A DNA stretch of 64,000 nt from Lewinella sp. 4G2 (GTDB lineage Bacteria; Bacteroidota; Bacteroidia; Chitinophagales; Saprospiraceae). The stretch is taken from the NCBI RefSeq assembly GCF_001625015.1, contig NZ_LVWJ02000014.1, positions 1,240,001 to 1,304,000 of the forward strand. The letters run 5' to 3'. How positions within the stretch are numbered: position 1 is the stretch's first letter; each line of letters starts with the position of its first letter. Made by a program: the position numbers and the translations under genes. Shown piece after piece: positions 26,399 through 58,252 of the stretch. The notes beneath the pieces were generated by a model. That model ran no database searches. It had not been told where the DNA came from and worked only from the letters and a program-made list of their open reading frames with translations.

Positions 26399-26532
26399 GT
26401 AGTCGGGTAGTAGCGTAGTCTGGTAGTAGCGTAGTGCGAGAGGGCAACTCCTAAGAATTTACTACCAGATTAAGGGGTGTAAAGATACGGAACGGGAGGC
26501 CGACTACCCGACTAAAAACTACCCGATTAACC
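26399..26532. repeat. Octamer array with inverted arms, GTAGTCGG type
   Basis: Left arm GTAGTCGG GTAGTAGC GTAGTCTG GTAGTAGC GTAGT; right arm GACTACCCGACTAAAAACTA and CCCGATTAACCCC. The stop codon of the Fur-type gene (TAA on the minus strand, 26527-26529) lies inside the right arm. Confidence 0.75.
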
Positions 26533-26991
26533 CCGTGTTTTCTCGCATCCGCCGTCGCAATCGCCGTACAGATTGAGGGAGTGCGAGGTCACATTGAAGT
26601 TGAGGATCTCCCCCATCATGTTCTTGATCTGCTGGACGCGCGGGTCGCAGAATTCGAGCACTTTACCGCAGTCATTACAGATCAGGTGGTCGTGCTGCTT
26701 GTAGCCGTAACTCTTCTCGTACTGGGCCAAATTCTTGCCGAATTGGTGCTTCTTGACGAGGTCGCAGCTCACCAGTAATTCCAACGTGTTGTAGACCGTG
26801 GCGCGGGATACGCGGTAGTTGTTGGTCTTCATGTGGATGTAGAGACTCTCCGCGTCGAAGTGGTCGTCGCGGCTGTAGATCTCTTCCAGGATCGCGTAGC
26901 GTTCGGGCGTTCGCCGGGCTTTGCGCTCCCGCAGGTGGTTGGTGAAGAGTTCCTTGACAACCTCGATGTCGGTACTGGCCTTGCTCTGCAT
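26527..26991 (-). CDS. Fur-family metal-dependent transcriptional repressor
   Basis: 154 residues. Winged-helix DNA-binding half (RRTPERYAILEEIYSRDDHF, DAESLYIHMKTNNYRVSRAT, VYNTLELLVSCDLV) followed by the metal-binding dimerisation half with HDHLICNDCGKVLEFCDP and a C-terminal second Cys pair (DCDGGCEK) forming a structural zinc site. Family members sense iron, zinc or peroxide; which applies is not clear. The ATG at 26991 (MQSKASTDIEVVKELF) is used because the frame further upstream is translated array sequence. Arrays flank the gene on both sides. Confidence 0.9.
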   Translation of the reverse strand: MQSKASTDIEVVKELFTNHLRERKARRTPERYAILEEIYSRDDHFDAESLYIHMKTNNYRVSRATVYNTLELLVSCDLVKKHQFGKNLAQYEKSYGYKQHDHLICNDCGKVLEFCDPRVQQIKNMMGEILNFNVTSHSLNLYGDCDGGCEKTRG

Positions 26992-27000
26992 TGTTTTAGT

Positions 27001-27085
27001 ATTTAGTCGGGTAGTAGCGTAGTCGGGTAGTAGCACGACGGCACTACCCGACTACGCTACTACCAGACTACACGACTACACCCGG
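27001..27085. repeat. Octamer array with inverted arms, GTAGTCGG type
   Basis: Left arm GTCGGGTAGTAGCGTAGTCG GGTAGTAG; right arm CTACCCGACTACGCTACTAC CAGACTACACGACTACACCC. The TAG stop codon of the RelA/SpoT gene (minus strand, 27076-27078) is one of the array's repeated TAG triplets. Confidence 0.8.
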
Positions 27086-29295
27086 GAAACGGTTGAGACG
27101 TAAGCTAAGTTTTTGAGCGACTGCATGGCGAGGTACAATTGGTCGGTATTCCGGACGAGCAGCGACACGTTGGCCTCGTAAAAACCATCGTTGCCAGAGA
27201 TGTTGAAGCTGCGGATGTTCAGGCCCAACTCCGTGATCTCGTGGCTGATGCGCTCGATCACGCCCGTCCCGCTGTCCAGCCCCGTCAGGCGAAGGTCGAC
27301 AACGAAACTGCTCTGGCTCGTGCTGACCCACTCCGCTTTCATAATGCGGTAGCCGTAGTTGGCCATCAGATTCTGCGCGTTGGGGCAGGTGCTGCGGTGG
27401 ATCTTCAGGCCGGCGCCCGTGGTGAGGTAGGCGAAGACCTGGTCGCCCTGCACCGGGTTGCAGCAACTGGCCATGGAGTACTCGAGCTGGTCGCCCGGCT
27501 CGCCGTTGATGAGGAGTTTGGAGTGCCCCTCCACCTTATTCGCCCGGCTGCGGCGGATGGTCGCCGGATCGCGCGGCTCCTCCGGTGGTAGCTCGACGGC
27601 CTTCGGCGTAAGCTTGCCCGCTTCCACGATGAAGGGCTCCAGCAACTGCGCGATGGTGACGTGCTCCTCGGCCAGCGCGAAGAACATCTCCAAATGGCTG
27701 TTCTCGAAGTGGTGCTTGGCCAGCACTTCCACGGCGGCGGGGATGTCGTTGATCCGCATGTTCTTCAGCTTCCGGTAAAGGGCTTCCTTGCCCAACTCAC
27801 CGGCAGCTTTTCGCTCCGCCTTGAGTGCCTGGCGAATCTTCGACCGCGCCTTCCCGGTGACGACCATCTTCAGCCACCCTTCGTTCGGCTTTTGCTGCTT
27901 GTTGGTAATGACTTTAAGCCGATCGCCGTTCTGTAACTCGTAGCTGAGGGGGACGATCTTTTCATCGCGCAAAACGCTCTGGGTGTGGTAGCCAACTTCG
28001 GTGTGGACGGAAAAAGCAAAATCTAAGGCCGTGGCGCCCTTCGGCAGGGTGCGCATGTCACCGTCGGGCGTCCAGACGTAGACCTCTTCGTTGAAGAAGT
28101 TATTGGCCCGGAAGTCACCCAGGAATTGGACGGAATCCGACGTCGGGTCGTCGAGGATGTCCCGCACGGAATCGAACCACTGTTCGTAGACGTCCGGTTG
28201 GTCGCTCACGCCCTTGTACTTCCAGTGGGCGGCGAAACCGCGTTCGGCGATCTCGTTCATCCGTTCGCTGCGGATCTGTACTTCTACGAAGCGGGCGTCG
28301 GGGCCCACGACCGTCGTGTGCAGGCTTTCGTAGCCGTTGGATTTGGGCAGCGTAACCCAGTCCTTGAGGCGTTCGGGGACGCCCTTGTACACGTCCGTCA
28401 CCACCGTGTAGGCGCTCCAGCAGGCCAGTTTCTCCTTCTTGGGTGGCACGTCCATGATGATGCGGACGGCAAAGAGGTCGTAGATCTGTTCGAAGGGGAC
28501 CTGCTTCTTTTTGATCTTGTTGGCAATGGAGTAGATCGACTTCGGCCGGCCGAAGATCCGGTAGGTGTAGCCCAGCTCGTCGAGCCCTTCGCGGAGGGGT
28601 TGGATGAAACGGTCGATGTAGCCCTCCCGCGTCCGTTTCGTTTCCTGCAGCTTGCGGGCGACGGCTTGGTACTCGTCGCGTTCGAGGACCTTCATGCAGA
28701 GATCGAGGAATTCCGACCGGAAATTGTACAGCCCCAGGCGGTGGGCGAGCGGCGCGTAGATGTAGCTTGTTTCGGCCGCGATCTTGAACTGCTTGTGCTC
28801 GGGCATGGACTTGATCGTCCGCATATTATGCAGCCGGTCCGCCATTTTGATGAGGACGATGCGGACATCGTCCACCAGCGTGCTCAGTACCTTTTTGAAG
28901 TTAGCGGCCTGCTTGGATTCGTCGGAGTAGGCGCTGTCCAGCTTCGTAAGGCCGCCTACCATCTGGGCGATGCGGTCGCCAAACTGGTCGCGGATATCGG
29001 CGAGTGTAACGGGGGTGTCTTCCACGACGTCGTGCAGTAACGCCGCGCAGATAGCGGTGGGGCCAAGGCCAATCTCCTCGGCGCAGATCCGCGCTACGGC
29101 GATGGGGTGGTACATGTAAGGCTCGCCCGATTTCCGCCGTTGGTAGCGGTGGCTGTAGTTGGCCAGGTCGTAGGCGCGGCCCATCTGTTCGAGGTCGGCC
29201 TCGTTGGGCGTTTTGGCCAGGGTGGCGATCATCTCGTCGTAGGCCGTGCGTAGCCCCGCCTGCTCTTCTACCGTCGTTTCGATTACTTCCGCCAT
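27076..29295 (-). CDS. Bifunctional (p)ppGpp synthetase/hydrolase, RelA/SpoT family
   Basis: 739 residues. Order: HD hydrolase domain (GEPYMYHPIAVARI, AALLHDVVEDTPV, KMADRLHNMRTI), synthetase domain (IYDLFAVRIIMD, LPKSNGYESLHTTVVGPD, VEVQIRSERMNEIAERG, AAHWKYK), TGS domain (VWTPDGDMRTLPKGATALDF), a zinc-finger/helical region (YSMASCCNPVQGD) and a C-terminal ACT domain (GVIERISHEITELGLNIRSF). HD residues are intact, so it should both make and break the alarmone. The ATG at 29295 (MAEVIETTVEEQAG) is chosen; the longer frame is an artefact of an upstream heptamer array. Its stop codon is supplied by another array. Confidence 0.95.
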   Translation of the reverse strand: MAEVIETTVEEQAGLRTAYDEMIATLAKTPNEADLEQMGRAYDLANYSHRYQRRKSGEPYMYHPIAVARICAEEIGLGPTAICAALLHDVVEDTPVTLADIRDQFGDRIAQMVGGLTKLDSAYSDESKQAANFKKVLSTLVDDVRIVLIKMADRLHNMRTIKSMPEHKQFKIAAETSYIYAPLAHRLGLYNFRSEFLDLCMKVLERDEYQAVARKLQETKRTREGYIDRFIQPLREGLDELGYTYRIFGRPKSIYSIANKIKKKQVPFEQIYDLFAVRIIMDVPPKKEKLACWSAYTVVTDVYKGVPERLKDWVTLPKSNGYESLHTTVVGPDARFVEVQIRSERMNEIAERGFAAHWKYKGVSDQPDVYEQWFDSVRDILDDPTSDSVQFLGDFRANNFFNEEVYVWTPDGDMRTLPKGATALDFAFSVHTEVGYHTQSVLRDEKIVPLSYELQNGDRLKVITNKQQKPNEGWLKMVVTGKARSKIRQALKAERKAAGELGKEALYRKLKNMRINDIPAAVEVLAKHHFENSHLEMFFALAEEHVTIAQLLEPFIVEAGKLTPKAVELPPEEPRDPATIRRSRANKVEGHSKLLINGEPGDQLEYSMASCCNPVQGDQVFAYLTTGAGLKIHRSTCPNAQNLMANYGYRIMKAEWVSTSQSSFVVDLRLTGLDSGTGVIERISHEITELGLNIRSFNISGNDGFYEANVSLLVRNTDQLYLAMQSLKNLAYVSTVSRV

Positions 29296-29375
29296 GTCCC
29301 CTGGTTTGCTTGCTTTGGAAATCCCTGGTAAGGTATGGAATGGGTAACGGATGGGTGGGGGGAAACGTTGCCAGG

Positions 29376-29445
29376 TGGGAGTTGCGAGTTGCGAGTTGCG
29401 AGTTGCGAGTACTCGCAACTTGCTACTTAATACTCGCAACTTGTC
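29376..29445. repeat. Heptamer array with inverted arms, GAGTTGC type
   Basis: Four units of GAGTTGC followed by GAGT, then ACTCGCAACTTGCTACTTAA and a second ACTCGCAACTTG. The arms pair as a hairpin. It lies between the restriction-locus remnant and the RelA/SpoT start. Confidence 0.8.
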
Positions 29446-29898
29446 CTACACCATCCGCTCCTCCAACACCCGCTTCCACTTCACCCACGCCGGATACTCC
29501 CGCGCCTGCAGGGCCTGAAACGCCTTCCCGTGGTTGTGGTGGGCCAGGTGGCATAGCTCGTGGACGATCACGTACTCAATGCAGCCACGCGGGGCACGGA
29601 TCAACTCCGTATTCAGGATGAGCTTGCCTTTCGCCGTGCAGCTGCCCCACTCATGATCTCCGGCCGGTCCTGCTTTTTGAAGCGTTCGACGAGGTTTTCC
29701 TGGTATTTTTTGGGCCGTGCCGTGCTCGTCCATCATCTGTTTCCAGAAACGCTTGATCAGGTCGTCGCTCTCGGCGTAGATGCTGTCTTCGCCCTCGCAC
29801 ATGTCGGGCGGGCTGAAGATCAGGGCCGATTGCACGCCGCCGGGGATGGCATCGAGGGCGCGTTTGTGCTTCACGGCGGTGAGTTTGTCGGGCGTCAC
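29446..29898 (-). pseudogene. Chimeric remnant: internal HsdR fragment joined to C-terminal M48/YgjP-like metallopeptidase
   Basis: The frame starting at GTG 29898 first encodes an HsdR-like stretch (ALIFSPPDM, GEDSIYAESDDLIKRFW, KQMMDEHGTA). At the A-run near 29703-29713 the HsdR reading continues in another frame: YQENLVERFKKQDRPEI, which in intact type I restriction subunits leads to the VVDKLLTGFDAP motif. Near 29650-29660 that is cut off and the first frame resumes as the end of a DUF45/YgjP metallopeptidase (EWGSCTAKGKLILNTELIR, VIVHELCHLAHHNHG). Thus the 150-residue frame is not one natural protein but the scar of deletions plus a one-base shift. M48 genes commonly follow hsdR. The HELCH zinc motif survives but the N-terminal part of the peptidase is missing. 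Confidence 0.8.
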
Positions 29899-30114: not shown

Positions 30115-30175
30115 TTAGGCGGTAGGGCACAGTCTCCAGGTGAGAGGAGCCCTACCGCCTATCCGCCTACCGCCT
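30115..30175. repeat. Short-period array with inverted arms, CTACCGCC type
   Basis: Left arm GGCGGTAGGGC, right arm GCCCTACCGCCTATCCGCCT followed by ACCGCC; the arms pair across ~22 bp. It lies exactly at the outer end of the hsdM remnant and continues into the direct repeat at 30151. Confidence 0.65.
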
Positions 30176-30245: not shown

Positions 30246-30276
30246 AGCTTAGTCAGCGCAGAAATAGCCTCCTCAT

Positions 30277-36380: not shown

Positions 36381-36460
36381 AGATTCGAGTATTTGAGTAT
36401 CAAGTGTCGAGTTGCGAGTATCAAGTACTTGTAACTCGCAACTCGATACTCGCAACTCTA
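36381..36460. repeat. Heptamer array with inverted arms, GAGTATN/GAGTTGC type
   Basis: Left arm GATTCGAGTATTTGAGTATC AAGTGTCGAGTTGCGAGTAT; right arm ACTCGCAACTCGATACTCGC AACTC. It fills the gap between convergent genes. The stop codon TAG of the HMG-CoA reductase gene (36458-36460) abuts the right arm. Confidence 0.8.
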
Positions 36461-37561
36461 CCCCCGCCCCAACCGCTCATGCGCCGCCGAAAAATGCCCC
36501 GCCGCCAACGCCGCCAAAATCGATAACTCCCCCGCCAAACAAACTCCTGCGGTGATCTCCGCCAGCTTATTCGCCTTGCCCGCTCCGAAGCAGTCCATAA
36601 GCTCCAGGCACTCGCGCTGGGTGGGCAGGCCCGTACCGCCGCCGACCGTTCCGACGATCAGGTTGGGAAGGGTGACGGATGCGTAAAGGTTCCCCTCCGG
36701 CGTAGCTTCCATCCGGACGGTCCCCACCGCCGCTTCCGCCACGCAGGCCGCATCCTGCCCGCAGGCGATGAAGAGCGCGGCGAGGCCGTTGGCGAGGTGG
36801 GCGTGGACGCCAATCGTCCCCGTCTGGAGAGCGCCGTAGCAGGCGGCCCGGCCGAAACGGTCGATGGTTTCCGGCGTGGTTTTTAGGACGGCCTTTACGA
36901 CGGCCCGCGGCAGAATTAATTCCGCGCAAACCCGCTTCCCCCGCACCCGCTGGAAGTTGGCGTAATTAGCCTTCTTATCTCCCGAAGCATTCACCTCCAG
37001 GTACCAGACTTTGATGTCGCCGGAAAACTGAGCGGCGATATAGCGGCAGATCCGGTCCGTACAGATCGTGACCATGTTTTGCCCGGCCGCGTCGCCCGTA
37101 GTGTAAGTGAAGCGCAGGGTCACCGCGTTACCCTCCAGCGTCGGGACGACGGATTTCAGTTGCGCGTACCGACTGTTCTCCCCGGTGATCGTCCGGAACG
37201 CTTCCGTCTGCCCCGCTACCCAGGCGATGAAGTTGGCGGCGGTGGTCAGGTCCGCCAGCTCAAAGTAGGGGGCCCGCTGTACGCCTTCGTCAATCACCTT
37301 CACGGTAGCGCCGCCGCTCTCCGTGATGGCCTTCATGCCGCGGGAAAAGGAGGCGACCAGGGCGCCTTCCGTAGTGGCCAGCGGGACGCTAAAGTCCCCC
37401 CGCGCGTGGTCCCCGTTCAACTGCATTGGTCCGGCCAGCCCCACCGGAACGCGGGCCATCCCAATATAATTCTCAATGTTGCCCCGTAGCCCTTCGGCGG
37501 TAGGGTTCGGCGCTTCGCCGGATAGGTGCGGATGGGTGGTGAGGAGTTCGATTGGGCTGAT
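36458..37561 (-). CDS. Hydroxymethylglutaryl-CoA reductase, class I-like
   Basis: HMG-CoA reductase makes mevalonate from HMG-CoA with NAD(P)H, the committed step of the mevalonate isoprenoid route. Seen are the ENYIGMARVPVGLAGP entry motif, LATTEGALVASFSRG with the catalytic Glu, EVNASGDKKANYANF with the catalytic Lys, ACGQDAACVAEAA with the catalytic Asp, GTVGGGTGLPTQRECLE, and a C-terminal AHERLG His. From the ATG at 37459 the product would be 333 residues but would lose EGLRGNIENYIG, which is conserved. The frame is open to a TAA at 37565 and contains no ATG, GTG or TTG there, so the true start is unclear (ATC at 37559 or 37550 possible). Confidence 0.9.
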   Translation of the reverse strand: MSPIELLTTHPHLSGEAPNPTAEGLRGNIENYIGMARVPVGLAGPMQLNGDHARGDFSVPLATTEGALVASFSRGMKAITESGGATVKVIDEGVQRAPYFELADLTTAANFIAWVAGQTEAFRTITGENSRYAQLKSVVPTLEGNAVTLRFTYTTGDAAGQNMVTICTDRICRYIAAQFSGDIKVWYLEVNASGDKKANYANFQRVRGKRVCAELILPRAVVKAVLKTTPETIDRFGRAACYGALQTGTIGVHAHLANGLAALFIACGQDAACVAEAAVGTVRMEATPEGNLYASVTLPNLIVGTVGGGTGLPTQRECLELMDCFGAGKANKLAEITAGVCLAGELSILAALAAGHFSAAHERLGRG

Positions 37562-37631: not shown

Positions 37632-37714
37632 GACGTTAGATTTTAGACTTTAGATGTTAGACGTTGGAGTGCGTCTAAAATCTAAATTCTAGAGTCTATC
37701 GTCTAACTTCTAAT
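37632..37714. repeat. Heptamer array with inverted arms, TTAGANN type
   Basis: Left arm TTAGATT TTAGACT TTAGATG TTAGACG; right arm TCTAAAA TCTAAAT TCTAGAG TCTATCG TCTAACT TCTAA, in perfect register of seven. The stop codon (TAG, minus strand 37710-37712) of the rhomboid gene is the last unit. Confidence 0.85.
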
Positions 37715-38579
37715 TCAACCTCCGAATATGCGGCGGCACCGTAGTCTTAGCAAAGTAGTACGCCAACGCCGCCCCCGTAATCGCCCCACCCAAATGCGCC
37801 CAGTGCGCGATGTTATCCCCCGTGATGTTGAGGACGCCGAGCACCAGGTCCACCCCGAAGACGACTAAGACCATCACCCAGGCCGGGAAGCCGAAGGGTA
37901 GGAAAAGCGGATAGACCTTCTGATTCGGATAGAAAACAGCGAAGGAAGCAAAGACACCCGAAACGGCGCCGGAGGCACCGAGCATCGGCACGAGGATCCA
38001 CCGCTCCAACTCATCCTGCATGAGGACTTTGGCGTCGCGGACGGCCCCTTCCACGTCCACCGGGTCGCCGAAGGCTAGCTTATTTTGCAGGTCGCCCAAA
38101 ATGCTGGCCCCCGTTTCTCTACCGATGATGTTACCCGACCCATCCTTAGTGACGTAAGGGATTCCACTCAGGTCCTTTCCCCGGAAAAAGGCGTCGAAAG
38201 TTTCCAGGGTAGGGTCCGCGGCAAACGCCTCCAGGGCCGTTTCAAGCCCTGCCGTATTCCAGTACACGAAGCCAAAGTGCATCGCCACCGCCCCGAATAA
38301 AGAAGCGAAGTACAGCAGCGTAAAATTCTTTGCTCCTAGCCGCGTCTCGATGACCGGTCCGAAGAAGTACAGGCCCAGCATGTTGAAAGCAATGTGGAAT
38401 TCATCTGCGTGCATAAAGGCGTGCGTCACCAGCTGCCAGGGTTTGAAATTGGGCGTCGATGGGTAGTAAAGGACGAGTTCATTCGCCAGCGGCCCGTTCT
38501 CACCGGTCGCCAAGATGAGCACGAACAGGAGTGCGTTCGCGATCAACAGGTACTTTACGATGGGGGTGATGGAACGCAT
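37710..38579 (-). CDS. Rhomboid-family intramembrane serine protease
   Basis: 289 residues, about six membrane helices. The catalytic serine is in GASGAVSGVFASF (about residue 200) and the catalytic histidine in WAHLGGAITGAALAYYF near the C-terminus, with the first-helix HAFMHADEFHIAFNMLGLYFFG block also typical. A soluble insertion of about 75 residues (SGIPYVTKDGSGN region) sits between helices 3 and 4. Rhomboids cut transmembrane substrates within the bilayer; substrate unknown. The ATG at 38579 (MRSITPIVKYLLIANALLF) is chosen. Downstream of mutL on the same strand; the stop codon is in an array. Confidence 0.9.
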   Translation of the reverse strand: MRSITPIVKYLLIANALLFVLILATGENGPLANELVLYYPSTPNFKPWQLVTHAFMHADEFHIAFNMLGLYFFGPVIETRLGAKNFTLLYFASLFGAVAMHFGFVYWNTAGLETALEAFAADPTLETFDAFFRGKDLSGIPYVTKDGSGNIIGRETGASILGDLQNKLAFGDPVDVEGAVRDAKVLMQDELERWILVPMLGASGAVSGVFASFAVFYPNQKVYPLFLPFGFPAWVMVLVVFGVDLVLGVLNITGDNIAHWAHLGGAITGAALAYYFAKTTVPPHIRRLN

Positions 38580-38582
38580 GAT

Positions 38583-38668
38583 TAGTCTGTAGTCTATAGT
38601 CTTTAGTCTCCAGTACTCCACGGCGATCGAAACGTCGGAAGTCTAAAATCTAAGATCTAACCTCTAAA
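38583..38668. repeat. Heptamer array, TAGTCTN left arm and TCTAANN right arm
   Basis: Left arm TAGTCTG TAGTCTA TAGTCTT TAGTCTC; right arm AGTCTAAAATCTAAGATCTA ACCTCTAAATT. It lies between the rhomboid start and the mutL stop. Confidence 0.75.
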
Positions 38669-42598: not shown

Positions 42599-43525
42599 AT
42601 GATCATTTATAAGACTAACGGCCCCTGGTTCAAGGACCTCGGCCACCTGTTTACTTCTTACACGATGACGCGGATCTCGAAGTCCGTCATCGCCATCGGC
42701 ATCTACGCCGCCCTGTTCGTCGGCGCCGTGGAATACTGGGATCTCCACGAGTACCTGGCCATGGATACGATGATGTTTTCCGTGCTCGGTCTCATCCTCG
42801 GTCTCTTTCTGGGCTTCCGGACGAACACCGCCTACGACCGCTGGTGGGAAGCCCGCAAACAGTGGGGCGCCCTCGTGAACCACAGCCGGAACATGGCGAT
42901 CTACGTCGATTCCATGTGGCCGGAATCCGACACGGGCATCCGCCGCTTCATGGCCAAGCACATCGGGAATTTCTGCCTCGCGCTGGCTTGGCACCTGCGC
43001 GACGGCGTCAAGCTCGACAACCTCGTTTACCTCAGCGAAGAAGAGATCGCTTATTACTCCACCAAAGATCACGTCCCCAATTTCATCGCCCTGCGCATCT
43101 TCCAGCGCATGGCCGAGGCCCACCGGAACGGCGACATCAACGAGGGGGATTACATCAACATCAAGGCCCAGCACCAGGCCCTGCTGGACATCCTCGGCGC
43201 CTGCGAACGCATCAAGAAAACGCCGATCCCGTTCAGCTACAACGTCTACCTCAAGCTGTTCGTGACGGCCTACGGTATCCTGCTGCCCATGGGCCTGGAG
43301 GAGAGTTTTGGTTGGACGACCGTGCCCCTCACCATGCTCGTTTTCTTCGCCCTGCTCGGCATCGAACTCATGGGTGAAGAGATCGAAGACCCCTTCGGCC
43401 TCGACTGCAACGACCTACCGACGAACGACATCGCCCACACCATCAAGGGTAATGTTTTCGAGATCCTCGAAGACCGTAAGCCCGTGGAGCATGACCGGGT
43501 AGAGCAGTATTCGAAAGTATTTTAG
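42599..43525 (+). CDS. Bestrophin-family anion channel
   Basis: 308 residues, matching the bacterial bestrophin-like (UPF0187/YneE) family. Seen are an N-terminal helix before LFTSYTMTRISKSVIAIGIY, the signature GLFLGFRTNTAYDRWWEARK with QWGALVNHSRNMA, IPFSYNVYLKLFVTAYGIL in the third helix, and the late GEEIEDPFGLDCNDLP motif. These proteins form pentameric anion or cation channels in the inner membrane. The ATG at 42599 (MIIYKTNGPWFKDLGHLF) is used. The TAG stop (43523-43525) is the first triplet of an octamer array. Confidence 0.92.
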   Translation: MIIYKTNGPWFKDLGHLFTSYTMTRISKSVIAIGIYAALFVGAVEYWDLHEYLAMDTMMFSVLGLILGLFLGFRTNTAYDRWWEARKQWGALVNHSRNMAIYVDSMWPESDTGIRRFMAKHIGNFCLALAWHLRDGVKLDNLVYLSEEEIAYYSTKDHVPNFIALRIFQRMAEAHRNGDINEGDYINIKAQHQALLDILGACERIKKTPIPFSYNVYLKLFVTAYGILLPMGLEESFGWTTVPLTMLVFFALLGIELMGEEIEDPFGLDCNDLPTNDIAHTIKGNVFEILEDRKPVEHDRVEQYSKVF

Positions 43526-43608
43526 TCGGGTAGTCGGGTAGTCAGGTAGTACGTGCATGACACACGTGCACTACCCGACTACGCTACTACCCGACTACCG
43601 TACTACCA
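43523..43608. repeat. Octamer array with inverted arms ending both convergent genes
   Basis: Left arm TAGTCGGG TAGTCGGG TAGTCAGG TAGTACG; centre GTGCATGACACACGTGCAC; right arm TACCCGACTACGCTACTACC CGACTACCGTACTACC. The bestrophin stop TAG is the first unit of the left arm and the stop of the facing T9SS gene (TAG on the minus strand, 43595-43597) is in the right arm. Confidence 0.85.
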
Positions 43609-44734
43609 CCGGTCGAGTAACCCGCGCACCCGTAGCATCCGTCAGCCGAACGAAAATGATGCCGTGGCGGCGGGGGAGATCGGGCCGCAGCGTGATTTCA
43701 TTTGCGCCGGCGAAGACTGGCGAGATTAGTTCGTAGAGCAGTTGTCCCCTGGCGTCCACCAACTCAATTTGCAGCGTACCGGTTTCGGGGAGCGTCAGTT
43801 GCAGGCGCAGTTTGCGCACCATCGGGTTCGGTGAGATGACGACGTTTTCCAGGTATTCCGGAGCCAATGGGCGCTGTCGCGGGTGCTCAGAAAGTGGGCG
43901 AGCGCTGGGATCGGGAGCAGAGAACGTATCGACGATGGTATCGCGGACGAGGTCCCAGCCAGTAGGTTTCGATGGCTCTATGTAGACGATGCCCATGGTC
44001 GTCTCGATATCGTCGTATTCCGGCGGTGGCGGCGGGAGTGGAGGAGTGGCGATATCTCTTACCTGAAGGTTTCCTGTAATCGTTTCTCCTCCCCCAGAGC
44101 TATCGACTTCAATCCTTGGCGGCAGGTACGTCTCAGTATGAGGCATTGTGCCGCACTTAATAATAATTGGTGGTGGCGGCGGTGGCGGTGGAATAGCCGG
44201 AATAGAATCAACGGTAGGAGCGGGTACCGGTGGTGGCGGGGACATCGGCGTAGCTATCCGCCCCATGATCATATGATGTTGAATGATCGGTGTATCCAAT
44301 TGCTTCGGTGGGGCCGGCGGCAGCGTATCCACCAACTCAGGAATGAGCGGCGCAGCGATCTCCCCCATGATTTCCGGGTAATCGATCTCAATCGGGTCCG
44401 CCGGTGGCGGGGTGGGTGTAGCCTGCGCATCTAACCCGGTCGAGCCGAAGAGCATCCCCGCGGCGGTGGCGGCCACTTTGAGTGGAGTGTAGCTGGGTTT
44501 GTGGGTGGCGCGGAGTTCGCGGCCGAGTTGGTCCGGGCGGAAGCGGCCGCAGATCTTGGCGCCATTTTCTTTGGTGTAGGCCCGCAGTTCGGCATCGGAA
44601 AAGCCGGTGAAGTCGACGACGTTCTTGGCGCAGGAGTCGCAGTGGCGGGCGGTGGTCCCATCGACGGGCGTCATGCCATTCCAATCTTCGTGGCAGGGTT
44701 CGGGGACGGAAATACGGAGGGGAGTGTAAGCCAT
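43595..44734 (-). CDS. Protein with N-terminal Cys-rich motif, proline-rich middle and T9SS sorting domain
   Basis: 379 residues. The first ~70 residues form the Bacteroidota motif ISVPEPCHEDWNGMTP, RHCDSCAKNVVDFTGFSDAE and GAKICGRFRPDQLGRELR, with four cysteines that could bind metal. A hydrophobic stretch (LKVAATAAGMLFGSTGL) follows, then a long Pro/Thr-rich region, and finally a T9SS type A sorting domain (VISPNPMVRKLRLQLTLPE, VDARGQLLYEL, VRPVVVR-like end). The combination implies that the Cys motif stays cytoplasmic until export or that the helix at ~75-95 acts as an internal signal. A dispersed-element copy lies at 43868-43888. Function unknown. Confidence 0.78.
   Translation of the reverse strand: MAYTPLRISVPEPCHEDWNGMTPVDGTTARHCDSCAKNVVDFTGFSDAELRAYTKENGAKICGRFRPDQLGRELRATHKPSYTPLKVAATAAGMLFGSTGLDAQATPTPPPADPIEIDYPEIMGEIAAPLIPELVDTLPPAPPKQLDTPIIQHHMIMGRIATPMSPPPPVPAPTVDSIPAIPPPPPPPPIIIKCGTMPHTETYLPPRIEVDSSGGGETITGNLQVRDIATPPLPPPPPEYDDIETTMGIVYIEPSKPTGWDLVRDTIVDTFSAPDPSARPLSEHPRQRPLAPEYLENVVISPNPMVRKLRLQLTLPETGTLQIELVDARGQLLYELISPVFAGANEITLRPDLPRRHGIIFVRLTDATGARVTRPVVVR
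43868..43888. repeat. Dispersed element copy inside T9SS gene
   Basis: TGGGCGCTGTCGCGGGTGCT, forward orientation; encodes HPRQRPLA on the minus strand, just before the sorting domain. Confidence 0.6.
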
Positions 44735-50600: not shown

Positions 50601-52496
50601 AATGACGGTAATGATGGCGCTACTGGTGCTCAAGGTCCTCAGGGCGAACAGGGCATCCAAGGTGTAGCTGGACCCCAAGGTGAAACTGGTGCTCAGGGTC
50701 CTGCTGGCAATGATGGTGCTGACGGCGCTGACGGCGCTCAAGGGCCTCAGGGCGAACAGGGCATCCAAGGTATAGCTGGACCACAAGGTGAAACCGGTGC
50801 TCAAGGTCCTGCTGGTAATGACGGTGCAGACGGTACAGACGGCGCTGACGGTGCTACTGGCGCTCAAGGTCCTCAGGGCGAACAGGGCATCCAAGGTATA
50901 GCTGGACCGCAAGGTGAAACTGGCGCTCAAGGTCCCGCTGGTAATGACGGTGCTGACGGCGCTGATGGTGCTCAAGGTCCTCAGGGCGAACAGGGTATCC
51001 AAGGTGTAGCTGGACCACAAGGTGAAACCGGTGCTCAAGGTCCTGCTGGTAATGACGGCGCTGATGGCGCTACTGGCGCTCAAGGTCCTCAAGGCGAACA
51101 GGGTATCCAAGGTATAGCTGGCCCCCAAGGTGAAACTGGTGCTCAAGGTCCTGCTGGTAATGACGGTGCTGATGGCGCTGACGGCGCTACTGGTGCTCAA
51201 GGTCCTCAGGGCGAACAGGGTATCCAAGGTATAGCTGGACCGCAAGGTGAAACTGGAGCTCAAGGTCCTGCTGGTACTGACGGCGCTGATGGTGCTACTG
51301 GCGCTCAAGGTCCTCAAGGCGAACAGGGTATCCAAGGTATAGCTGGCCCCCAAGGTGAAACTGGTGCTCAGGGTCCTGCTGGTAATGACGGCGCTGATGG
51401 CGCTACTGGCGCTCAAGGTCCTCAGGGCGAACAGGGTATCCAAGGTATAGCTGGACCACAGGGTGAAACTGGCGCTCAAGGTCCTGCTGGTAATGACGGT
51501 GCAGACGGCGCTGATGGCGCTACTGGTGCTCAAGGTCCTCAGGGCGAACAGGGCATCCAAGGTATAGCTGGCCCTCAAGGTGAAACTGGTGCTCAAGGTT
51601 CTGCTGGTAATGACGGCGCTGATGGCGCTCAAGGTCCCCAAGGCGAACAGGGTATCCAAGGTATAGCTGGCCCGCAAGGTGAAACTGGTGCTCAAGGTCC
51701 TGCTGGTAATGACGGCGCTACTGGTGCTCAAGGTCCTCAGGGCGAACAGGGTATCCAAGGTGTAGCTGGCCCCCAAGGTGAAACTGGCGCTCAAGGTCCC
51801 GCTGGTACTGACGGCGCTACTGGCGCTCAAGGTCCCGCTGGAAATGACGGCGCTGATGGTGCCGACGGTATGACCGGCCCCAAAGGCGAAAGAGGCGCAA
51901 CCGGGCCTAAAGGCGACCAGGGTGACCAAGGCGAAACCGGCATGACTGGCGCCCAAGGCGAACAAGGCATGCAAGGCATAGCCGGTCCCCAAGGCCCAGC
52001 TGGCCCCGCAGGCCAAGACGGCCTCAACGGCGAAACCGGTGCCCGTGGCCCACAGGGAATCCAGGGAGTTCAGGGTAACGAAGGTATCCGTGGCCCCGAA
52101 GGCCCACGTGGCCCCACGGGTTCACAGGGCGTCCAGGGTGTACAGGGCGAAGCTGGTCCTGCGGGCCCGGTAGGTCCTCGTGGCCCATCCGGAGTAGCCA
52201 AAGGAGCGGCGAAGTACAATGCCGCGACCAGCTCCGAAGTCTATGATGCAGGCAATAATATCATCTTCGGAACCATGGAAGCATCCGGTACGACCGACGA
52301 AACCTCCCTCACCGTGAGTATGGCGGGCATGATGCTTACCGCCTCGAATAGTGTGATTCAGGTCAACCCCAATGCGCGCGGCGTTTTCTATGAAGTGACC
52401 TACAGCGGCGGTGCTGCGGTAATCAGCTTCTACAACTCTGCGGGTGCTACCGTTGATCTCGATGTCCTCAGTAACGTATCCGTTTCGGCTTTCTAA
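47688..52496 (+). CDS. Giant collagen-like Gly-X-Y repeat protein
   Basis: 1602 residues. A signal peptide (1-22) and a Bacteroidota N-terminal domain (about 23-125; [49 protein letters not shown]) precede about 1370 residues of uninterrupted Gly-X-Y triplets. The main module, about 33-39 residues ([20 protein letters not shown] then [16 protein letters not shown]), occurs about 30 times with small length changes in multiples of a triplet. The C-terminal ~100 residues are a globular beta-rich head ([40 protein letters not shown]) that could serve as a trimerisation knob. Codons in the repeat favour GGT and GCT. No T9SS domain; anchoring unknown. Probably a long surface fibre. Confidence 0.92.
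48400..51860 (+). repeat. Collagen-coding tandem repeat DNA
   Basis: Nearly identical units of about 99-117 bp with high synonymous identity; unit lengths differ only by multiples of 9 bp (one triplet of residues). The minus strand is also open for 1236 codons, a consequence of the GGN/GCN/CAR codon set and not a second gene. Confidence 0.9.
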
Positions 52497-53539: not shown

Positions 53540-53578
53540 GAAAGGTGGTTGAGAGTTGTAAGGTAGGGGTTTGTGGTA

Positions 53579-53650
53579 AAGTCTGTAGTCTATAGTCTAT
53601 AGTGCGCCGCCCCTAAGACTGCAGACTACAGACTACAGACTACAGACTAA
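53579..53650. repeat. Heptamer array with inverted arms, AGTCTAT/AGACTAC type
   Basis: Left arm AGTCTGT AGTCTAT AGTCTAT AGT; right arm AGACTGC AGACTAC AGACTAC AGACTAC AGACTAA. The GNAT gene ends inside the right arm: its last residues (RLVCSL) and its TAG stop (minus strand, 53633-53635) are array sequence. Confidence 0.85.
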
Positions 53651-54181
53651 TCGCCAATCCTCCATCAAGTACCCATTCCCAATATCCGTATCGAAGCGAT
53701 CCAGTTTCACGAAGCCGAGATGCTCGTACAGGCCGATGGCTTTATTCTGGTAATTCACGTCCAGCCGCAGTTTTTTCTGGCCTTCGTTTTTGGCAATTCG
53801 CTTAACGGTATCGATGAGCGCGCGCCCGTACCCTTTCCCGTGCCGGTCCGGCAGCACGTAGAGTTTGTGGAGTTTGGCCGTGGCCGGTAAATAATTTAAT
53901 TGGTAACTAACGTAACCTACGGCGCTGAATTTATTTGATTTCCCTTTTGCGTAGCCATTTTCAACGGCGTGTGCGGTGTTCTCCAGTATCAAATAAAATA
54001 CGTGGCCCTCCGCCACCTGTCGTTCAATGGCGGCGTAGCTGTACATCCGCTCCAGCATATATTCAATTTGCTCGGGGGAGAGAATATCCCCAAACGTATC
54101 TGGCCAGGTAGCGTGGGCGATCCGTTGAATTACCGCATAGTCGGACGGTGTGGCGGGTATGATTTTAAAGGGGTGAGGCAT
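53633..54181 (-). CDS. GNAT family N-acetyltransferase
   Basis: 182 residues. A single GNAT domain: FKIIPATPSDYAVIQRIAHA, VGYVSYQLNYLPATAKLHKL, YVLPDRHGKGYGRALIDTVK with the acetyl-CoA pyrophosphate loop (RHGKGYG), LRLDVNYQNKAIGLYEHLGF. Substrate unknown. The C-terminal residues come from an array, so the natural end of the protein may have been shorter or longer. Start ATG at 54181. Confidence 0.86.
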   Translation of the reverse strand: MPHPFKIIPATPSDYAVIQRIAHATWPDTFGDILSPEQIEYMLERMYSYAAIERQVAEGHVFYLILENTAHAVENGYAKGKSNKFSAVGYVSYQLNYLPATAKLHKLYVLPDRHGKGYGRALIDTVKRIAKNEGQKKLRLDVNYQNKAIGLYEHLGFVKLDRFDTDIGNGYLMEDWRLVCSL

Positions 54182-54220
54182 ACGCTAAATAATTACTTAA
54201 TTTATTTTGGAGGATACAAA

Positions 54221-54901
54221 TCACCCCACCCGCTCGTGCAACTCCGCCCCGTTATTCCTTACGTTCCCCACCATCGCCGAAACGGGGTACGCCGTCAGTG
54301 TCCCGTCCGGCGGCGTCCGTAGTAGGTCTTTTACTCCCGCTAGTGAAGTCGAATCGTCCAGCCACGCATTTTGGAGGTCCGTTTGTTGGAGGAGCATGGG
54401 CATCCGGTCGTGCAAGGGTTCCATTTCCGCGTTGGGGGCGCCGGTGATGATGGAGTAGGTATGGACGGCCTCCGCGTCGGGGTCATTCTTGTCCTTCCAG
54501 GTTTCCCAGATACCGGCCATTACGAGTAGGCTACCGTCGGCCGGGAAGATGCGGTGGGGGTATTTCTTGCCGTCTTTACGTTGCCATTCGTAGAAGGAAT
54601 CCGCCACCACCAGGCACCGCCGTTCGCGGATGGCCTTGCGGAAACTCGGCTTATCCTCGATCCCCTCGCGCCGCGCGTTGATCATCCGCGCCCCAATTTT
54701 TAGGTCCTTGGCCCAGAACGGCACGAGTCCCCAGCGAAATAAATTTAATCGGTCCGGGTCCGCATTCGTAATTACGGGGTTCCGCTGCGTCGGGGCCACG
54801 TTGTAGTTCTTCACCAGCGCATTTGTAGGCGTAAAGAGGTCGCGGGTAAATTGCTCCCGCAGCTTCGCTTCGTCGATGACAACACTGTAGCGTCCACACA
54901 T
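54221..54901 (-). CDS. SRAP-domain (YedK/HMCES-like) protein
   Basis: 226 residues. The SRAP domain covalently caps abasic sites in single-stranded DNA through its Cys2, made available after Met removal; the start MCGRYSVVIDEA is therefore decisive and the ATG at 54901 is used. The catalytic-site features are present: NVAPTQRNPVITNADPD, WGLVPFWAKDLKIGARMINA, RREGIEDKPSFRKAIRERRC, LVVADSFYEWQ (active-site Glu) and EPLHDRMPMLL (active-site His). Cytoplasmic DNA repair role. The upstream longer frame runs through an array. Confidence 0.95.
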   Translation of the reverse strand: MCGRYSVVIDEAKLREQFTRDLFTPTNALVKNYNVAPTQRNPVITNADPDRLNLFRWGLVPFWAKDLKIGARMINARREGIEDKPSFRKAIRERRCLVVADSFYEWQRKDGKKYPHRIFPADGSLLVMAGIWETWKDKNDPDAEAVHTYSIITGAPNAEMEPLHDRMPMLLQQTDLQNAWLDDSTSLAGVKDLLRTPPDGTLTAYPVSAMVGNVRNNGAELHERVG

Positions 54902-54993
54902 AATTGGTGCTTTGGTGATTTGGTAACCGAAATATCCCCACTCCCGTTCGATGGTGGCCACCAAAGCACCAAGATACCAAAGCACCAAAACCG
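54902..54993. repeat. Short-period array with inverted arms, TTTGGTGN type
   Basis: Left arm TTGGTGC TTTGGTGA TTTGGTAA; right arm CACCAAAGCACCAAGATACC AAAGCACCAAAACC. It fills the gap between the SRAP start and the DUF5682 stop (54994-54996), which abuts the right arm. Confidence 0.75.
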
Positions 54994-57366
54994 CTACCCC
55001 ATCCACCCCAAAAGCGCTTCTACCAAATCTTCGTGTTCCCCCTCAACCACTTCCGCTTCCTCCCGAAGGTAATCCACTTCATCTATCGGCGCTGCCGCAG
55101 GTGCGGGGTTATGGACAGAAGCTGCGCCTGCCACATCAACCCTTTCCCCGGCACCCGCGACAGCGCCCTGATTATCGGACTGGGCTAAGCGGAGTAGACG
55201 CTGGCGGTCGAAGACGCTAAAGTCAGCAAAAGTGCGGCGGAGGAGGGGGAGAATGGCCTCGAAATCTTCCCACGCAAGACCGGCCACCCACCCATCGACA
55301 AGCGCCCAGAGCGGCGGATAATGAAAGAGTAATTGGCCACTACCGTGCAAAAACCCGCTGAGCCACTGGGCCACGTAATGAGCGGAATTGGCCGCCGAAA
55401 GGGCCCGCGAAAAGCGCTTGGCCGCCGCGGCGTCGTCGAACAAACCACGGTCGTAAAGGAGGCGCACGCAGTGGCCCTCGATGAGGGGATGAATGCCCCC
55501 GGCGGCAACGGCCCGGCGCAGGCCGCCCTCCCAAACGTCGTCGTGCAACTCATTTTCGAGCTGGGCGATGGCGTAGTTGGCCGCCGCCAAATGGCCGAGT
55601 AAATCGGTGGCCTGGTCGTCGTCAATGTTGGTCGCCGCGGCGGGCAAACCAGCGACGAGGCGCGGTAATAATTCGTCGATGACCTGCAACAGCGCCGTCG
55701 TATCCGTCTTGCGGGAATCCCCGTAACGGCTGGTCTGCACGAGCGTGGGGATGGCCGCGAGCAGCGCCGCCACGTCGGTCGTTTCGGCGGCCCGCTGGCG
55801 CAGGAGATCCATGAGGGTGGGGACGACGTCCGGCAAGTCCGCCCGCAAACAATCGAGGGTAAGTTGGGCGAGGGGGAGGACGGTCGTCAGCTCCTGCGCC
55901 CTTTCCTCACTGTACTTGGCCGCGGCGCTGGCGACGGTATTGCCGTAACTCGCCCGCTCGATGAGGTAGAGTGAAAACTCGGGCTTCCACTCCAGTAACC
56001 AGATCTCCTTGAAGCTGCTGATGGTGTCCGGGCCGAGTGGCTGTAAGCTCCCCCAATGGATGCCGAGCAGGTTGAGGCGGTGGAGAAGGTGGCTCTTCCG
56101 CAGGTCATTGGAAGCGCGCAGATCGATGCCGCCCCGCGGGTTGGTCTTGGTGGCCTTGAGGTATAACTGGCCCGCAGTTTCCCAGAGCTTGGCCATCCGG
56201 GTGCTCTTGATCTCCTTATTGAAGTTCTCGACGAGCGGGACGGACGTGACCCCCGGCGGGACGAACCCGACCGTCGTACCAATCGTCAGTTTTTCGTGAA
56301 TGATTGCCAGCCGTTCTGGGCGGCCCGCGGCGAGGGTGCCGAGGAGGGCTTGCTCCAATTCCTGGATGCCGGGGGCTTCGTGATCGCGTAAATTGGCCAG
56401 GGCGCCGGCGAGGGCGACGGCCTCCGTAGCCATGGCCGGGCTGGCGTCGTAACCTTCTTCGCGGAGGAGTTTGCCGGCCGTGGCCATCCATCTTGCCGTG
56501 GCGTTTTCGGGGAAGTCGTGGAGTAATTTGTACCAGGATGGGCTCAGTACCCCGGCCCCGTACCCACCCGACCGGGCCAGGCGGGGGTAGGACCAAGGCA
56601 CCCACGCCGTCGCCACCTTGACGCGGGGCAGACCCTTGAGCCGCGCCTTATCCGTGGAGGCTTTGTACCGGCCGATGTCGTTCACCGCCGGCCCGTGGAA
56701 GGCCCCGACGATGATGGCGATCCGCTCCGCCCCGGATTTCATGGCCTTGCGGATCTCGGTGCGCATAAAGGCCTCCCGCCGCTCGTTTTCCGCATCGGAT
56801 GCCGAAGGAAAGGCTTCCCGGAGTTCACCGATCATTTCCAAGAGGGCGGTAAAGGTGGCTTCCGGATTGTCCGTGCCGCGCTCCAGCGTAGCATCCCACC
56901 AGGATTCAGAATCTTCGTAACCGGCCAGTTCCGCCATCAGCGAAAGTGGGTCGCGGCGCAGTTGGCGGTTGAGTTGTTTGCGCGTCTTCCCCGGTAGCAG
57001 GGAGGGCGTTTCCGGCGGGGGCTCCTCCGTTTGGAAAAGGGTGGGCGGCACGTGGGCGGCCGTTTCGGCGAGGTAGTTCTTGGCGGGCAGGTCGATGGGC
57101 GTCACCGTCACCCCGTGCTCCACCGCCCAGTCGATGGCCTGGTACTCGGGGCTGAAACTGGCGAAGGGGTAGAAGCTGGCCCGCTCAATGTCCTTAGCGT
57201 CGTAGAGCACCATGGCGACGGGTGGCCGCAGGTCCTTGGCCACGACGTCCGTCAGGTTCACCGCGTCGGCCGGCCATTCGAGGAGAATGAGGTCGGGGGC
57301 GTAGGCGTCCAGCGCGGCGCGGAGGCGGCGGGCGGAGTTGGGGCCGTGGTGGCGGATGGCATAGAT
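54994..57366 (-). CDS. DUF5682 family protein, start codon missing
   Basis: About 790 residues. The N-terminus has the DUF5682 hallmark RIYAIRHHGPNSARRLRAAL, APDLILLEWPADA, later PFASFSPEYQAIDWA, the EAFMRTEIRKA helix and IAIIVGAFHGPA, all like the TraB/ChaN-type fold; the C-terminal 500 residues are helical repeats. DUF5682 genes usually sit with MoxR AAA+, VWA and SWIM genes; none is nearby. From GTG 57261 the protein would lose the HHG motif, while the open frame upstream contains no ATG/GTG/TTG. ATC at 57364-57366 lies at the expected spot, immediately beyond a heptamer array. Two dispersed-element copies are in the C-terminal linker. Confidence 0.82.
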   Translation of the reverse strand: MYAIRHHGPNSARRLRAALDAYAPDLILLEWPADAVNLTDVVAKDLRPPVAMVLYDAKDIERASFYPFASFSPEYQAIDWAVEHGVTVTPIDLPAKNYLAETAAHVPPTLFQTEEPPPETPSLLPGKTRKQLNRQLRRDPLSLMAELAGYEDSESWWDATLERGTDNPEATFTALLEMIGELREAFPSASDAENERREAFMRTEIRKAMKSGAERIAIIVGAFHGPAVNDIGRYKASTDKARLKGLPRVKVATAWVPWSYPRLARSGGYGAGVLSPSWYKLLHDFPENATARWMATAGKLLREEGYDASPAMATEAVALAGALANLRDHEAPGIQELEQALLGTLAAGRPERLAIIHEKLTIGTTVGFVPPGVTSVPLVENFNKEIKSTRMAKLWETAGQLYLKATKTNPRGGIDLRASNDLRKSHLLHRLNLLGIHWGSLQPLGPDTISSFKEIWLLEWKPEFSLYLIERASYGNTVASAAAKYSEERAQELTTVLPLAQLTLDCLRADLPDVVPTLMDLLRQRAAETTDVAALLAAIPTLVQTSRYGDSRKTDTTALLQVIDELLPRLVAGLPAAATNIDDDQATDLLGHLAAANYAIAQLENELHDDVWEGGLRRAVAAGGIHPLIEGHCVRLLYDRGLFDDAAAAKRFSRALSAANSAHYVAQWLSGFLHGSGQLLFHYPPLWALVDGWVAGLAWEDFEAILPLLRRTFADFSVFDRQRLLRLAQSDNQGAVAGAGERVDVAGAASVHNPAPAAAPIDEVDYLREEAEVVEGEHEDLVEALLGWMG
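55087..55106. repeat. Dispersed element copy inside DUF5682 gene
   Basis: GGCGCTGCCGCAGGTGCGGG, forward, encoding NPAPAAAPID in the acidic C-terminal linker. Confidence 0.65.
55150..55169. repeat. Dispersed element copy inside DUF5682 gene
   Basis: GGCACCCGCGACAGCGCCCT, reverse orientation relative to the copy at 55087, encoding QGAVAGAGE. Confidence 0.65.
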
Positions 57367-58252
57367 GCGATTCTCGATTCTCGATTCTCGATTGGCGAGG
57401 ACTGATTGTGCTGCCGCACGGCTCTGTCGTGCTTTGCACTCCCTCGGGTTTTAACTGGACGTGGAGTTGTGGTAAATATCGGGAGAAGAAGATCTAAATG
57501 ATTCTCGAATCTCGATTTGTTGCGCAGTACTTCATGCTCTCGATCGGCGAGGACTGATGAACTACGTTGCTGCTTCGCGGCTGCCGCACGGCTCTGTCGT
57601 GCTTTGCACTCCCTCGGGTTTTAACTAGACGTGGAGTTGTGGTAAATATCGCTCGGGAGGTGCTATGCTCTTCTATCTGCTAAACCTCTACCTGCATTTA
57701 ACTTTTTGTCGAGCGATCGGACGGTGGCTACAAAAATGCTGATGAGTTCGTTATTTTCAACGATGAGGTCTTTAAGCCTGTGGTCGGATAAATATTTAGC
57801 CCCGAGGATGATCTTAAGATTTATGTAGGTCTCCCGTAACTCCTTTAGCGCAATACTGCTTTTGTGCCGAAAATCTTTATCCGATTGAGCTCCGCGGGCT
57901 TCCCCATAAAGCAAAGCTGGAGCACTTCCTGATCGCACAATCTGCTTGCTAAAGTGCTGGCCGCTGAATGTTTTTGGCAAGTTGTCTGCCACTTTAATAA
58001 TACGAATAGCGAACGCAATCAGTCTGTCTTCTAAAATCTGGGCTTTTTGGTTGGATGTCATGTCTGCTGTTTATCCAAAGCTACGGAAAAGCAGCAAATG
58101 AAACAAATAGTGTTTAATGTATTTCGAATGCAACACAAGCAACACCTTCTTGAGCACGCAGTGCGAAAAAGCCGTGCGGTAGCCACTCAGTCCTCATTTA
58201 TCGAGAATCGAGTATCGAGAATCAAAATTTGAGAATCAAAATTTGAGAATCA
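57367..58252. mobile_element. Repeat-bounded cassette carrying a four-helix-bundle gene
   Basis: The left side has heptamers (CGATTCT)n, then CGATTGGCGAGGACTGAT and GCTGCCGCACGGCT (57369-57440); this block is repeated at 57541-57651. The right side (58150-58252) carries the reverse complement, AGCCGTGCGGTAG, CAGTCCTC and (GAGAATC)n units. The interior codes only for the four-helix-bundle protein. The two ends thus form long complementary arms around one gene. It sits between the 5' end of the DUF5682 gene and the 3' end of the NTF2-like gene, whose TGA stop (58250-58252) is array sequence. Confidence 0.6.
57663..58061 (-). CDS. Four-helix bundle protein (23S rRNA IVP/S23-like)
   Basis: 132 residues. 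It fits the four-helix bundle family first known from intervening sequences of 23S rRNA genes: ILEDRLIAFAIRIIKVADNL, the conserved turn IVRSGSAPALLYGEARGA, DFRHKSSIALKELRETYINL, and a last helix ENNELISIFVATVRSLDKKL. Members are small cytoplasmic, often pentameric proteins of unclear role, some as accessory proteins of diversity-generating retroelements. Here there is no rRNA or reverse transcriptase nearby; the gene lies inside inverted repeats. Start ATG at 58061. Confidence 0.85.
   Translation of the reverse strand: MTSNQKAQILEDRLIAFAIRIIKVADNLPKTFSGQHFSKQIVRSGSAPALLYGEARGAQSDKDFRHKSSIALKELRETYINLKIILGAKYLSDHRLKDLIVENNELISIFVATVRSLDKKLNAGRGLADRRA

Follow-up and report, generated by a model that had tools for sequence, protein, structure and literature searches.

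Short words repeated in tandem between genes have been described in several bacterial groups. In Xanthomonas, GGGAATC heptamers downstream of open reading frames (ORFs) are usually no more than 50 bp away from the stop codon, in some cases overlap it, and are mostly transcribed; two nearby convergent repeat sites occur in 70 (Xcc) and 75 (Xac) cases (Rehm, 2015, PMC4692102). TAACTGA heptamers occur in Beggiatoaceae, Cyanobacteria and five Bacteroidetes; their arrays carry stops in three frames, overlaps with stop codons were noted, and in some Bacteroidetes there are long intergenic arrays that are absent from close relatives (MacGregor, 2015, PMC4679880). Here we describe a population of intergenic elements in the marine bacterium Lewinella sp. 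4G2, built from tandem 7- or 8-nt words and their complements, on the basis of a 64,000-nt stretch of its 5.21-Mb genome (contig positions 1,240,001–1,304,000; hereafter the window) and of wider samples from the same genome and its relatives. Convergent heptamer pairs near stops and three-frame heptamer stops are already known from the two reports, and these overtake the statement of an initial annotation of the window, made from the sequence alone, that no link of heptamer arrays to stop codons was known. What looks new is the presence of strong hairpins just past the stops of rpsB (before tsf), rpsG (before fusA) and iscU, which are periodic at 7/8 nt and mostly cannot be aligned between species, together with words that differ between genomes. 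Searches of openly licensed PMC papers brought up no account of hairpins made from words in which the site persists while the words depend on the genome.

The word arrays are real, genome-wide and beyond chance. In 248 gaps (464 kb sampled), segments matching themselves at lags 7 and 8 numbered 19 and 11, whereas dinucleotide shuffles averaged 0.0 and 0.2; lags 4–6 and 9–13 gave 0 or 1, lag 14 gave 17 and lag 15 gave 1. Coding interiors (365 kb) held no segment at lag 7 and one at lag 8, and a count over 864 kb gave 31, 14 and 27 segments at lags 7, 8 and 14. We catalogued 127 elements in 1.664 Mb, a sample of which half was partly selected near known matches; the evenly spaced 800 kb (hereafter the even sample) held 42, which scales to roughly 270 elements genome-wide. 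Their density along the main contig is uneven (variance/mean ~2 in 36 even stretches). Six word families account for 121 elements: F1 (GTAGTCGG, 28 elements), F2 (TAGTCTN, 41), F3 (TTAGANN, 10), F4 (GAGTTGC, 20), F5 (CGATTCT, 8) and F6 (TTTGGTGC, 14), leaving 6 others. Each word combines a fairly constant core with variable positions. The orientation of the arms, judged on word cores (the F2 word is nearly self-complementary), was testable in the 52 of 121 family elements with at least two copies each of core and complement, the other 69 being untestable, and in 52/52 all word copies precede all complements. Among the 71 elements that reach 45 nt, the median is 72 nt for length and −38.9 kcal/mol for folding energy. 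The intergenic tandem arrays with inverted arms seen by the initial annotation are indeed present, and their paired arms can form hairpins, although not every array is paired (38583–38667 in the window).

Compared with the described systems, the elements are like the Xanthomonas repeats in being intergenic heptamer tandem arrays with convergent pairs near stops. The Xanthomonas repeats, however, use a single G-rich word that was investigated for G-quadruplex formation, whereas 4G2 uses six families of 7 or 8 nt, none of them GGGAATC-like, with words that depend on the genome while some sites are kept; a G3 quadruplex motif occurs in 2/28 F1 elements and 0/99 others. With the TAACTGA repeats they share heptamers in gaps and overlaps with stops, but that system has one fixed word, nearly always in direct orientation and mostly upstream of starts, in contrast to the inverted pairs, many words and post-stop position seen here. 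Ribosome stalling or reduced translation is reported for repetitive extragenic palindromic (REP) sequences at most 15 nt from stops (RepRanger, PMC12306157). Like REPs and bacterial interspersed mosaic elements (PMC12306157, PMC3733652), the 4G2 elements are numerous extragenic palindromes, part of them a few nucleotides past stops, and plausible RNA hairpins; with 127 in the sampled 1.664 Mb they exceed the more than 100 extragenic copies per genome expected of REPs. Unlike REPs, they have no single unpaired GTAG/CGTC tag outside the stem (GTAG is repeated inside F1 and F2 arms and is absent from the F4–F6 consensus words), their arms are tandem words and they show no clear link to a Y1 transposase. 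Finally, they resemble the intercistronic stabilising stem-loops of selective RNA processing and stabilisation (SRPS) operons (PMC8219983) and of differential operon decay (PMC5927463), in which a stem-loop follows a gene within an operon. Stem-loop and post-gene position agree here, co-transcription being suggested by gene order; the available parts of those two papers describe neither word-built hairpins nor unrelated sequence at a conserved site, and a corresponding function in 4G2 is presumptive.

Throughout the genome, the arrays are strongly tied in position to stop codons. Of the 26 co-directional elements in the even sample, 19 start no more than 20 nt from the upstream stop (uniform expectation 10.0; maximum 16 in 5000 simulations), and in gaps of at least 150 bp the figure is 10/15, against 1.6 expected and a simulated maximum of 7. 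Nine of the 26, and two of the 15 in long gaps, are that close to the downstream start; genes were called with a simple ORF caller whose starts are approximate, so start distances are less reliable than stop distances. Before gaps were counted, two false calls in a collagen-like gene were removed and the gene was entered by hand. Twelve genomes of relatives yielded 28 elements in 800 kb, further words among them; of the 13 co-directional ones, 6 are no further than 20 nt from the stop (2.1 expected; simulated maximum 7), a result not decisive alone.

Four genes with an element of their own in 4G2 (rpsB, rpsG, iscU and sucD), sites that were selected for carrying it, were searched for in 21 genomes of the same genus. 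The genes after rpsG, rpsB and iscU in 4G2 encode EF-G, EF-Ts and an Fe-S_biosyn protein (Pfam). Between rpsB and tsf, a hairpin with z < −2 is found in 17/20 species (−27 to −58 kcal/mol); between rpsG and fusA this holds in 10/20, and after iscU in 8 of the 13 gaps that were folded, another 7 measuring only 11 nt. The sucD site also reaches z < −2 in 17/20, and many relatives there have, by eye, classical hairpin plus U-run terminators. As a baseline, one z formula was applied with 4G2 left out: 50/180 co-directional gaps of relatives fall below −2 and 9/180 below −5. Against this, rpsB–tsf is below −2 in 16/19 species (nominal P 5e-7) and below −5 in 11 (P 2.5e-10), rpsG–fusA is below −5 in 7/19 (nominal P 2e-5), and 7 of 9 iscU gaps of at least 40 nt are below −2 (nominal P 0.003); sucD, at 16/19 (nominal P 5e-7), equals rpsB.

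The 35 rpsB, rpsG and iscU hairpins start a median of 3 nt past the stop (interquartile range 1–7) and have a median of 24 bp. They match themselves above background at lag 8 (0.424 versus 0.277) and lag 7 (0.332 versus 0.275), with a smaller excess at lags 3 and 11. In another comparison, loci of relatives gave 19 and 16 at lags 7 and 8 versus at most 5 at any other lag. Between species, alignment of the hairpins reaches z > 4 in only 6/136 rpsB, 1/45 rpsG and 2/28 iscU pairs. TTTT follows within 10 nt of the hairpin in 1/32, and in a wider window, where the figures are rough, in 4/17 rpsB, 1/10 rpsG and 0/8 iscU hairpins; U-run classes based on structure miss runs within the stem (1/17 at sucD, despite several visible by eye).

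A change of wording at one site is also apparent by eye in the gap between relA and fur. Among 56 loci, 4G2 RelA/SpoT is closest to that of Neolewinella antarctica (85% identity), its own or very near genomes being perhaps absent from the set. Where 4G2 has a GTAGTCGG hairpin, N. antarctica has GGTCTNN and N. persica GTTGCAG; one Lewinella metagenome-assembled genome (MAG; L012) has a GTTGCAG-related word, another (L016) has TTAGTC-like words, and a more distant Saprospiraceae MAG (L027) has GATTGGT. In N. lacunae, N. agarilytica, N. aurantiaca and several others no clear array was seen by eye in this gap, which measures only ~20 nt in the N. marina group.

Words differ between genomes, with overlap. 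A pattern of two copies of TAGTCNGN plus TAGTC, counted with overlapping matches in 21 genomes, occurs 24 times in 4G2, mostly as TAGTCGGG, and 49 times in G015 and 8 times in G008, mostly as TAGTCTGT. The 12 matches in G003 are mostly mixtures of TAGTCAGA, TAGTCAGG and TAGTCTGG, the 18 in G007 mix TAGTCTGT with the TAGTCGGG of 4G2, and the 10 in G004 form a single TAGTCGGT array. The pattern has no match in 10 of the 21 genomes, including G030, the closest relative by rpsB search.

Persistence of sites with changed letters, together with stop proximity and the missing U-tract of the 4G2 elements (below), fits our preferred reading, to which we give about an even chance: post-stop hairpin sites are refilled from the genome's own pool of REP-like palindromes and act as intercistronic stem-loops. 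Neolewinella genomes carry many short extragenic elements, in which the 3′ arm complements the 5′ arm where both are present. Words favoured by one genome, its 'dialect', would spread between loci, as suggested by the words, loop and inner elements that loci have in common. Some sites, including those between usual operon mates (rpsB–tsf, rpsG–fusA), persist as a hairpin a few nucleotides past the stop, and relatives have differently spelled hairpins at the same site; wholesale replacement would be the mode of turnover. In the mRNA, if transcription runs through the element as we infer, the result would be a post-stop intercistronic stem-loop without a U-tract, and by analogy with stop-proximal REPs and stabilising operon stem-loops it may block 3′–5′ decay of the upstream message, act as a brake on terminating ribosomes, or both.

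These observations suggest that the letters may be less important than structure and location. In a stronger form, which we regard as tentative and somewhat doubtful, the hairpins at certain post-stop sites of core operons would be a regulatory RNA element set by place and fold, not by sequence, which keeps a long stem while its letters are repeatedly replaced wholesale from a species-specific pool of 7/8-nt word palindromes. If so, this would be a functional RNA hairpin that keeps its site through complete sequence turnover, drawn from the repeat population of the same genome. With each genome spelling the same element in its own dialect, sequence-based searches would miss such hairpins, which would explain how they could escape comparative genomics. 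It would also join the literature on REP and heptamer repeats to that on operon mRNA processing, and offer a genus in which the co-option of repeats into core operons could be traced species by species.

Several results weigh against our preferred reading. The P values above are nominal binomial ones that ignore shared ancestry, and rpsG–fusA, with z < −2 in 9/19, is not significant (nominal P 0.054). Species lacking a hairpin exist: 10/20 have z > −2 at rpsG–fusA, and at iscU 7/20 have an 11-nt gap and 2 a 12-nt gap. The sucD site, with its classical terminators, scores like rpsB, so that a high z alone is no marker of the element type. Elements are similarly frequent per gap in divergent (10/82), co-directional (26/248) and convergent (6/60) gaps of the even sample, and the array search flagged nothing downstream of rhomboid in its 16 orthologues. 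In six alignable species pairs, changes on both sides of a base pair keep it 9 times and break it 7 times, and one-sided changes break 27 pairs and keep 16. Nor do the arms of one element match each other better than swapped arms in F1 (p 0.55) or F4 (p 0.70), although they do so slightly in F2 (p 0.03) and clearly in F6 (p 0.001). Base-by-base compensation or covariation of the arms, sought within own arms and in the six pairs, was mostly negative.

A serious rival, which we nonetheless think rather unlikely, holds that these are selfish or neutral palindromes, similar to REPs or to miniature inverted-repeat transposable elements, which multiply in the genome, are best tolerated just past stops and have no host function. 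The words differ between genomes, elements stand in divergent gaps too and their density is uneven, all of which speaks for it. Moreover, 6/8 F5 and 5/14 F6 elements (4/99 other family elements) have an inner palindrome core (GGCTGCCGC/GCGGYAGCC) no more than 150 nt away, two F1 elements have a loop in common, and a dispersed structured element of ~75 nt has, at six of eight places viewed, directly oriented F2 arrays on either side. This rival accounts poorly for recurrence at rpsB–tsf in 16 of 19 other species, against a baseline of 28%, and for stop proximity even in long gaps. A transposase link is also unclear: at six Y1_Tnp loci (~1.5-kb flanks) an F4 array stands at one, weaker arrays of other words at two and none at three, so that mobility through REP-associated transposases is unsupported. 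That the elements are a by-product of replication, in which 7/8-nt slippage and template switching between arms make and keep quasi-palindromes with no selection, strikes us as improbable. It would suit the way in which lags 7 and 8 stand out sharply for any word, in relatives as in 4G2, and the proposal of Mrazek et al. that polymerase-linked slippage favours 7 nt (as related in PMC4679880). Alone, however, it leaves unexplained both the recurrence of words across many loci within a genome and the stop proximity, and copying from arm to arm predicts a better own-arm match, which is absent in F1 and F4. We consider it very improbable that the elements are intrinsic terminators that happen to consist of words. 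Hairpins past stops, the 6/42 even-sample elements in convergent gaps, the U-run terminators of many sucD orthologues (the 4G2 gene has an F2 element) and the TTTT near the 3′ end of 4/17 rpsB–tsf hairpins of the genus would agree with it. In contrast, TTTT is present in 0/40 of the 4G2 elements in the 12 nt downstream and in 1/40 in a wider window, which led us to reject intrinsic termination as a general role, and sites between rpsB and tsf or rpsG and fusA and the similar frequency in divergent gaps argue the same way. A looser terminator scan, with a working positive control, marked 56/515 genes versus 14 in shuffled sequence. Folds of 90 nt were weak for 4G2 array gaps (median −0.94; 9/24 below −3 versus 37/201 in array-free gaps); the windows cut through elements, and the shuffles retain repeat composition.

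The initial annotation had read the arrays as two-sided, three-frame stop cassettes whose role is to provide stops; this we largely reject and give hardly any chance. Stop overlap as such is common (13/42 stop-facing elements in the even sample and window), and all eight stops it named do lie in or beside arrays, the NTF2-like one being TGA as claimed; the Fur stop is TAA, not TAG, and the TAG of HMG-CoA reductase precedes the GAGTTGC array. The window has two further stop-adjacent hairpins, one after the YgjP/SprT-like gene (29446) and the other after the gene with its stop at 54994. Three-frame stops on both strands, counted in the first 28 nt of elements of at least 45 nt, are the rule in F1 (16/18) but not in F2 (9/23), F3 (1/4), F4 (0/15) or F6 (0/11); no F5 element was long enough. 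Families with stop-free words are equally stop-proximal. Of co-directional elements from all 127, those within 20 nt of a stop number 11/15 in F4, 4/7 in F5 and 7/11 in F6, as against 15/20, 16/24 and 2/5 in the TAG-bearing F1, F2 and F3. In addition, all 14 bestrophin orthologues (13 ending in KVF, one in KIF) share the aligned final residue, yet an array was flagged past the stop in only two; the other 12 keep their end with no flagged array, which for this gene is an outcome that the annotation had itself named as counting against its proposal. The finder was silent on 8 HMG-CoA reductase orthologues, which carries little weight because it misses the element of 4G2 itself; one of these orthologues (L176) has, by eye, a stretch of GTAG words. 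Neolewinella RelA/SpoT orthologues end in VSTVSR(V)E(E/D) or similar, and the 4G2 protein is 1–2 residues shorter where the array overlaps. In a sample of 4G2 genes, TAG ends 210 of 518, on par with TAA (206).

Table 1. Elements and genes of the window, with copies of a dispersed ~75-nt element (positions in the window, or within the named locus)
Feature	Position	Strand	Remarks
F1 element (GTAGTCGG/GTAGTAGC, 8-nt)	26399..26526		Left arm 26399-26435, right arm from 26503; abuts fur stop (TAA, 26527)
fur (Ferric uptake regulator)	26527..27036	−	Pfam PF01475, E 1.6e-29
F1 hairpin between relA/spoT and fur	27004..27079		Contains relA/spoT stop (TAG 27076)
relA/spoT	27076..29295	−	Pfam-confirmed; C-terminus ...VSTVSRV
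F4 hairpin (GAGTTGC, 7-nt)	29367..29441		4 nt past stop of YgjP/SprT-like gene
YgjP/SprT-like gene	29446..29898	−	Stop 29446; Pfam YgjP profile matched over last third only
F4 hairpin	36381..36457		Immediately past HMG-CoA reductase stop (TAG 36458); under automatic thresholds and so outside the 127-element count
HMG-CoA reductase	36458..37459	−	PF00368, E 1.4e-107
F3 hairpin (TTAGANN, 7-nt)	37632..37713		Overlaps rhomboid stop (TAG 37710)
Rhomboid protease	37710..38621	−	PF01694
Two unpaired arrays of different families	38583..38667		F2 38583-38609, F3-like 38642-38667; without inverted partner
Bestrophin	42599..43525	+	PF25539, E 9.1e-72
F1 hairpin in convergent gap	43523..43607		TAG stops of bestrophin and of gene 43595..44734 both inside
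Gene labelled T9SS (type IX secretion system) by the initial annotation	43595..44734	−	Pfam: 0 families
F2 hairpin (TAGTCTN, 7-nt)	53580..53649		Overlaps GNAT stop (TAG 53633)
GNAT acetyltransferase	53633..54181	−	PF00583
F6 hairpin (TTTGGTGN, 8-nt)	54904..54989		Just past stop (TAG 54994) of gene 54994-57261; outside the 127-element count, as a predicted gene overlaps here and there is no gap
F5 arrays (CGATTCT, 7-nt) 57368-57393 and 58200-58252	57368..58252		Bracket dispersed inner repeats; arms 57368 and 58200 ~800 nt apart; right array overlaps SnoaL-like stop (TGA 58250)
SnoaL-like gene (NTF2-like; SnoaL_4)	58250..58810	−	PF13577; stop TGA
~75-nt element copies	L201:13018-13160, L222:8990-9145, L212:4255-4390, L212:10021-10158, L187:8719-8850, L197:16073-16240

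Among the genes of the window (Table 1), the T9SS label had no Pfam match behind it. The upstream part missing from the YgjP/SprT-like gene may be broken or lie in another frame. At 54890–55006 the predicted start of the SRAP gene overlaps both the F6 hairpin and the end of the neighbouring gene, and the Pfam SRAP match begins at residue 36; the true start is probably downstream. An Rfam search, limited to the window, gave no match at gathering score. A 1602-aa gene with long collagen-like repeats (47688–52496) has a long open frame on the opposite strand (48306–52016). Longer tandem repeats comprise a 103-nt unit in 2.5 copies that contains TTAGA-type words (13950–14208) and a 122-nt unit in 2 copies (15248–15497).

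Repeats of other kinds were seen near the word arrays and hairpin sites. The ~75-nt element has the form GGYTCTCCAGGCGGCC ... GAGCGCAGCGAC ... GGTTCCTGGAGCGGCCGG and looks as if inserted into an F2 array; by eye, its inner stem seems to vary with compensation. An array of 16-nt period (TTCCCCTCGTTTTCGTT; L110:1937-2038 and L212:8163-8198) adjoins a Y1_Tnp transposase gene and resembles an unclassified element elsewhere in the genome. After sucD, four of the relatives' loci (L316, L317, L318 and L319) carry several copies of a small GC-rich palindrome of TGCGGCCTCCGGCCGCG type, a further kind of post-stop repeat. Lastly, a motif like GCACCTGCGGCCNCGC stands at 26375–26395 of the window and also upstream of relA in L012, L013, L014, L016, L017 and L057; in several Neolewinella gaps it is, by eye, far better conserved than the word arrays.

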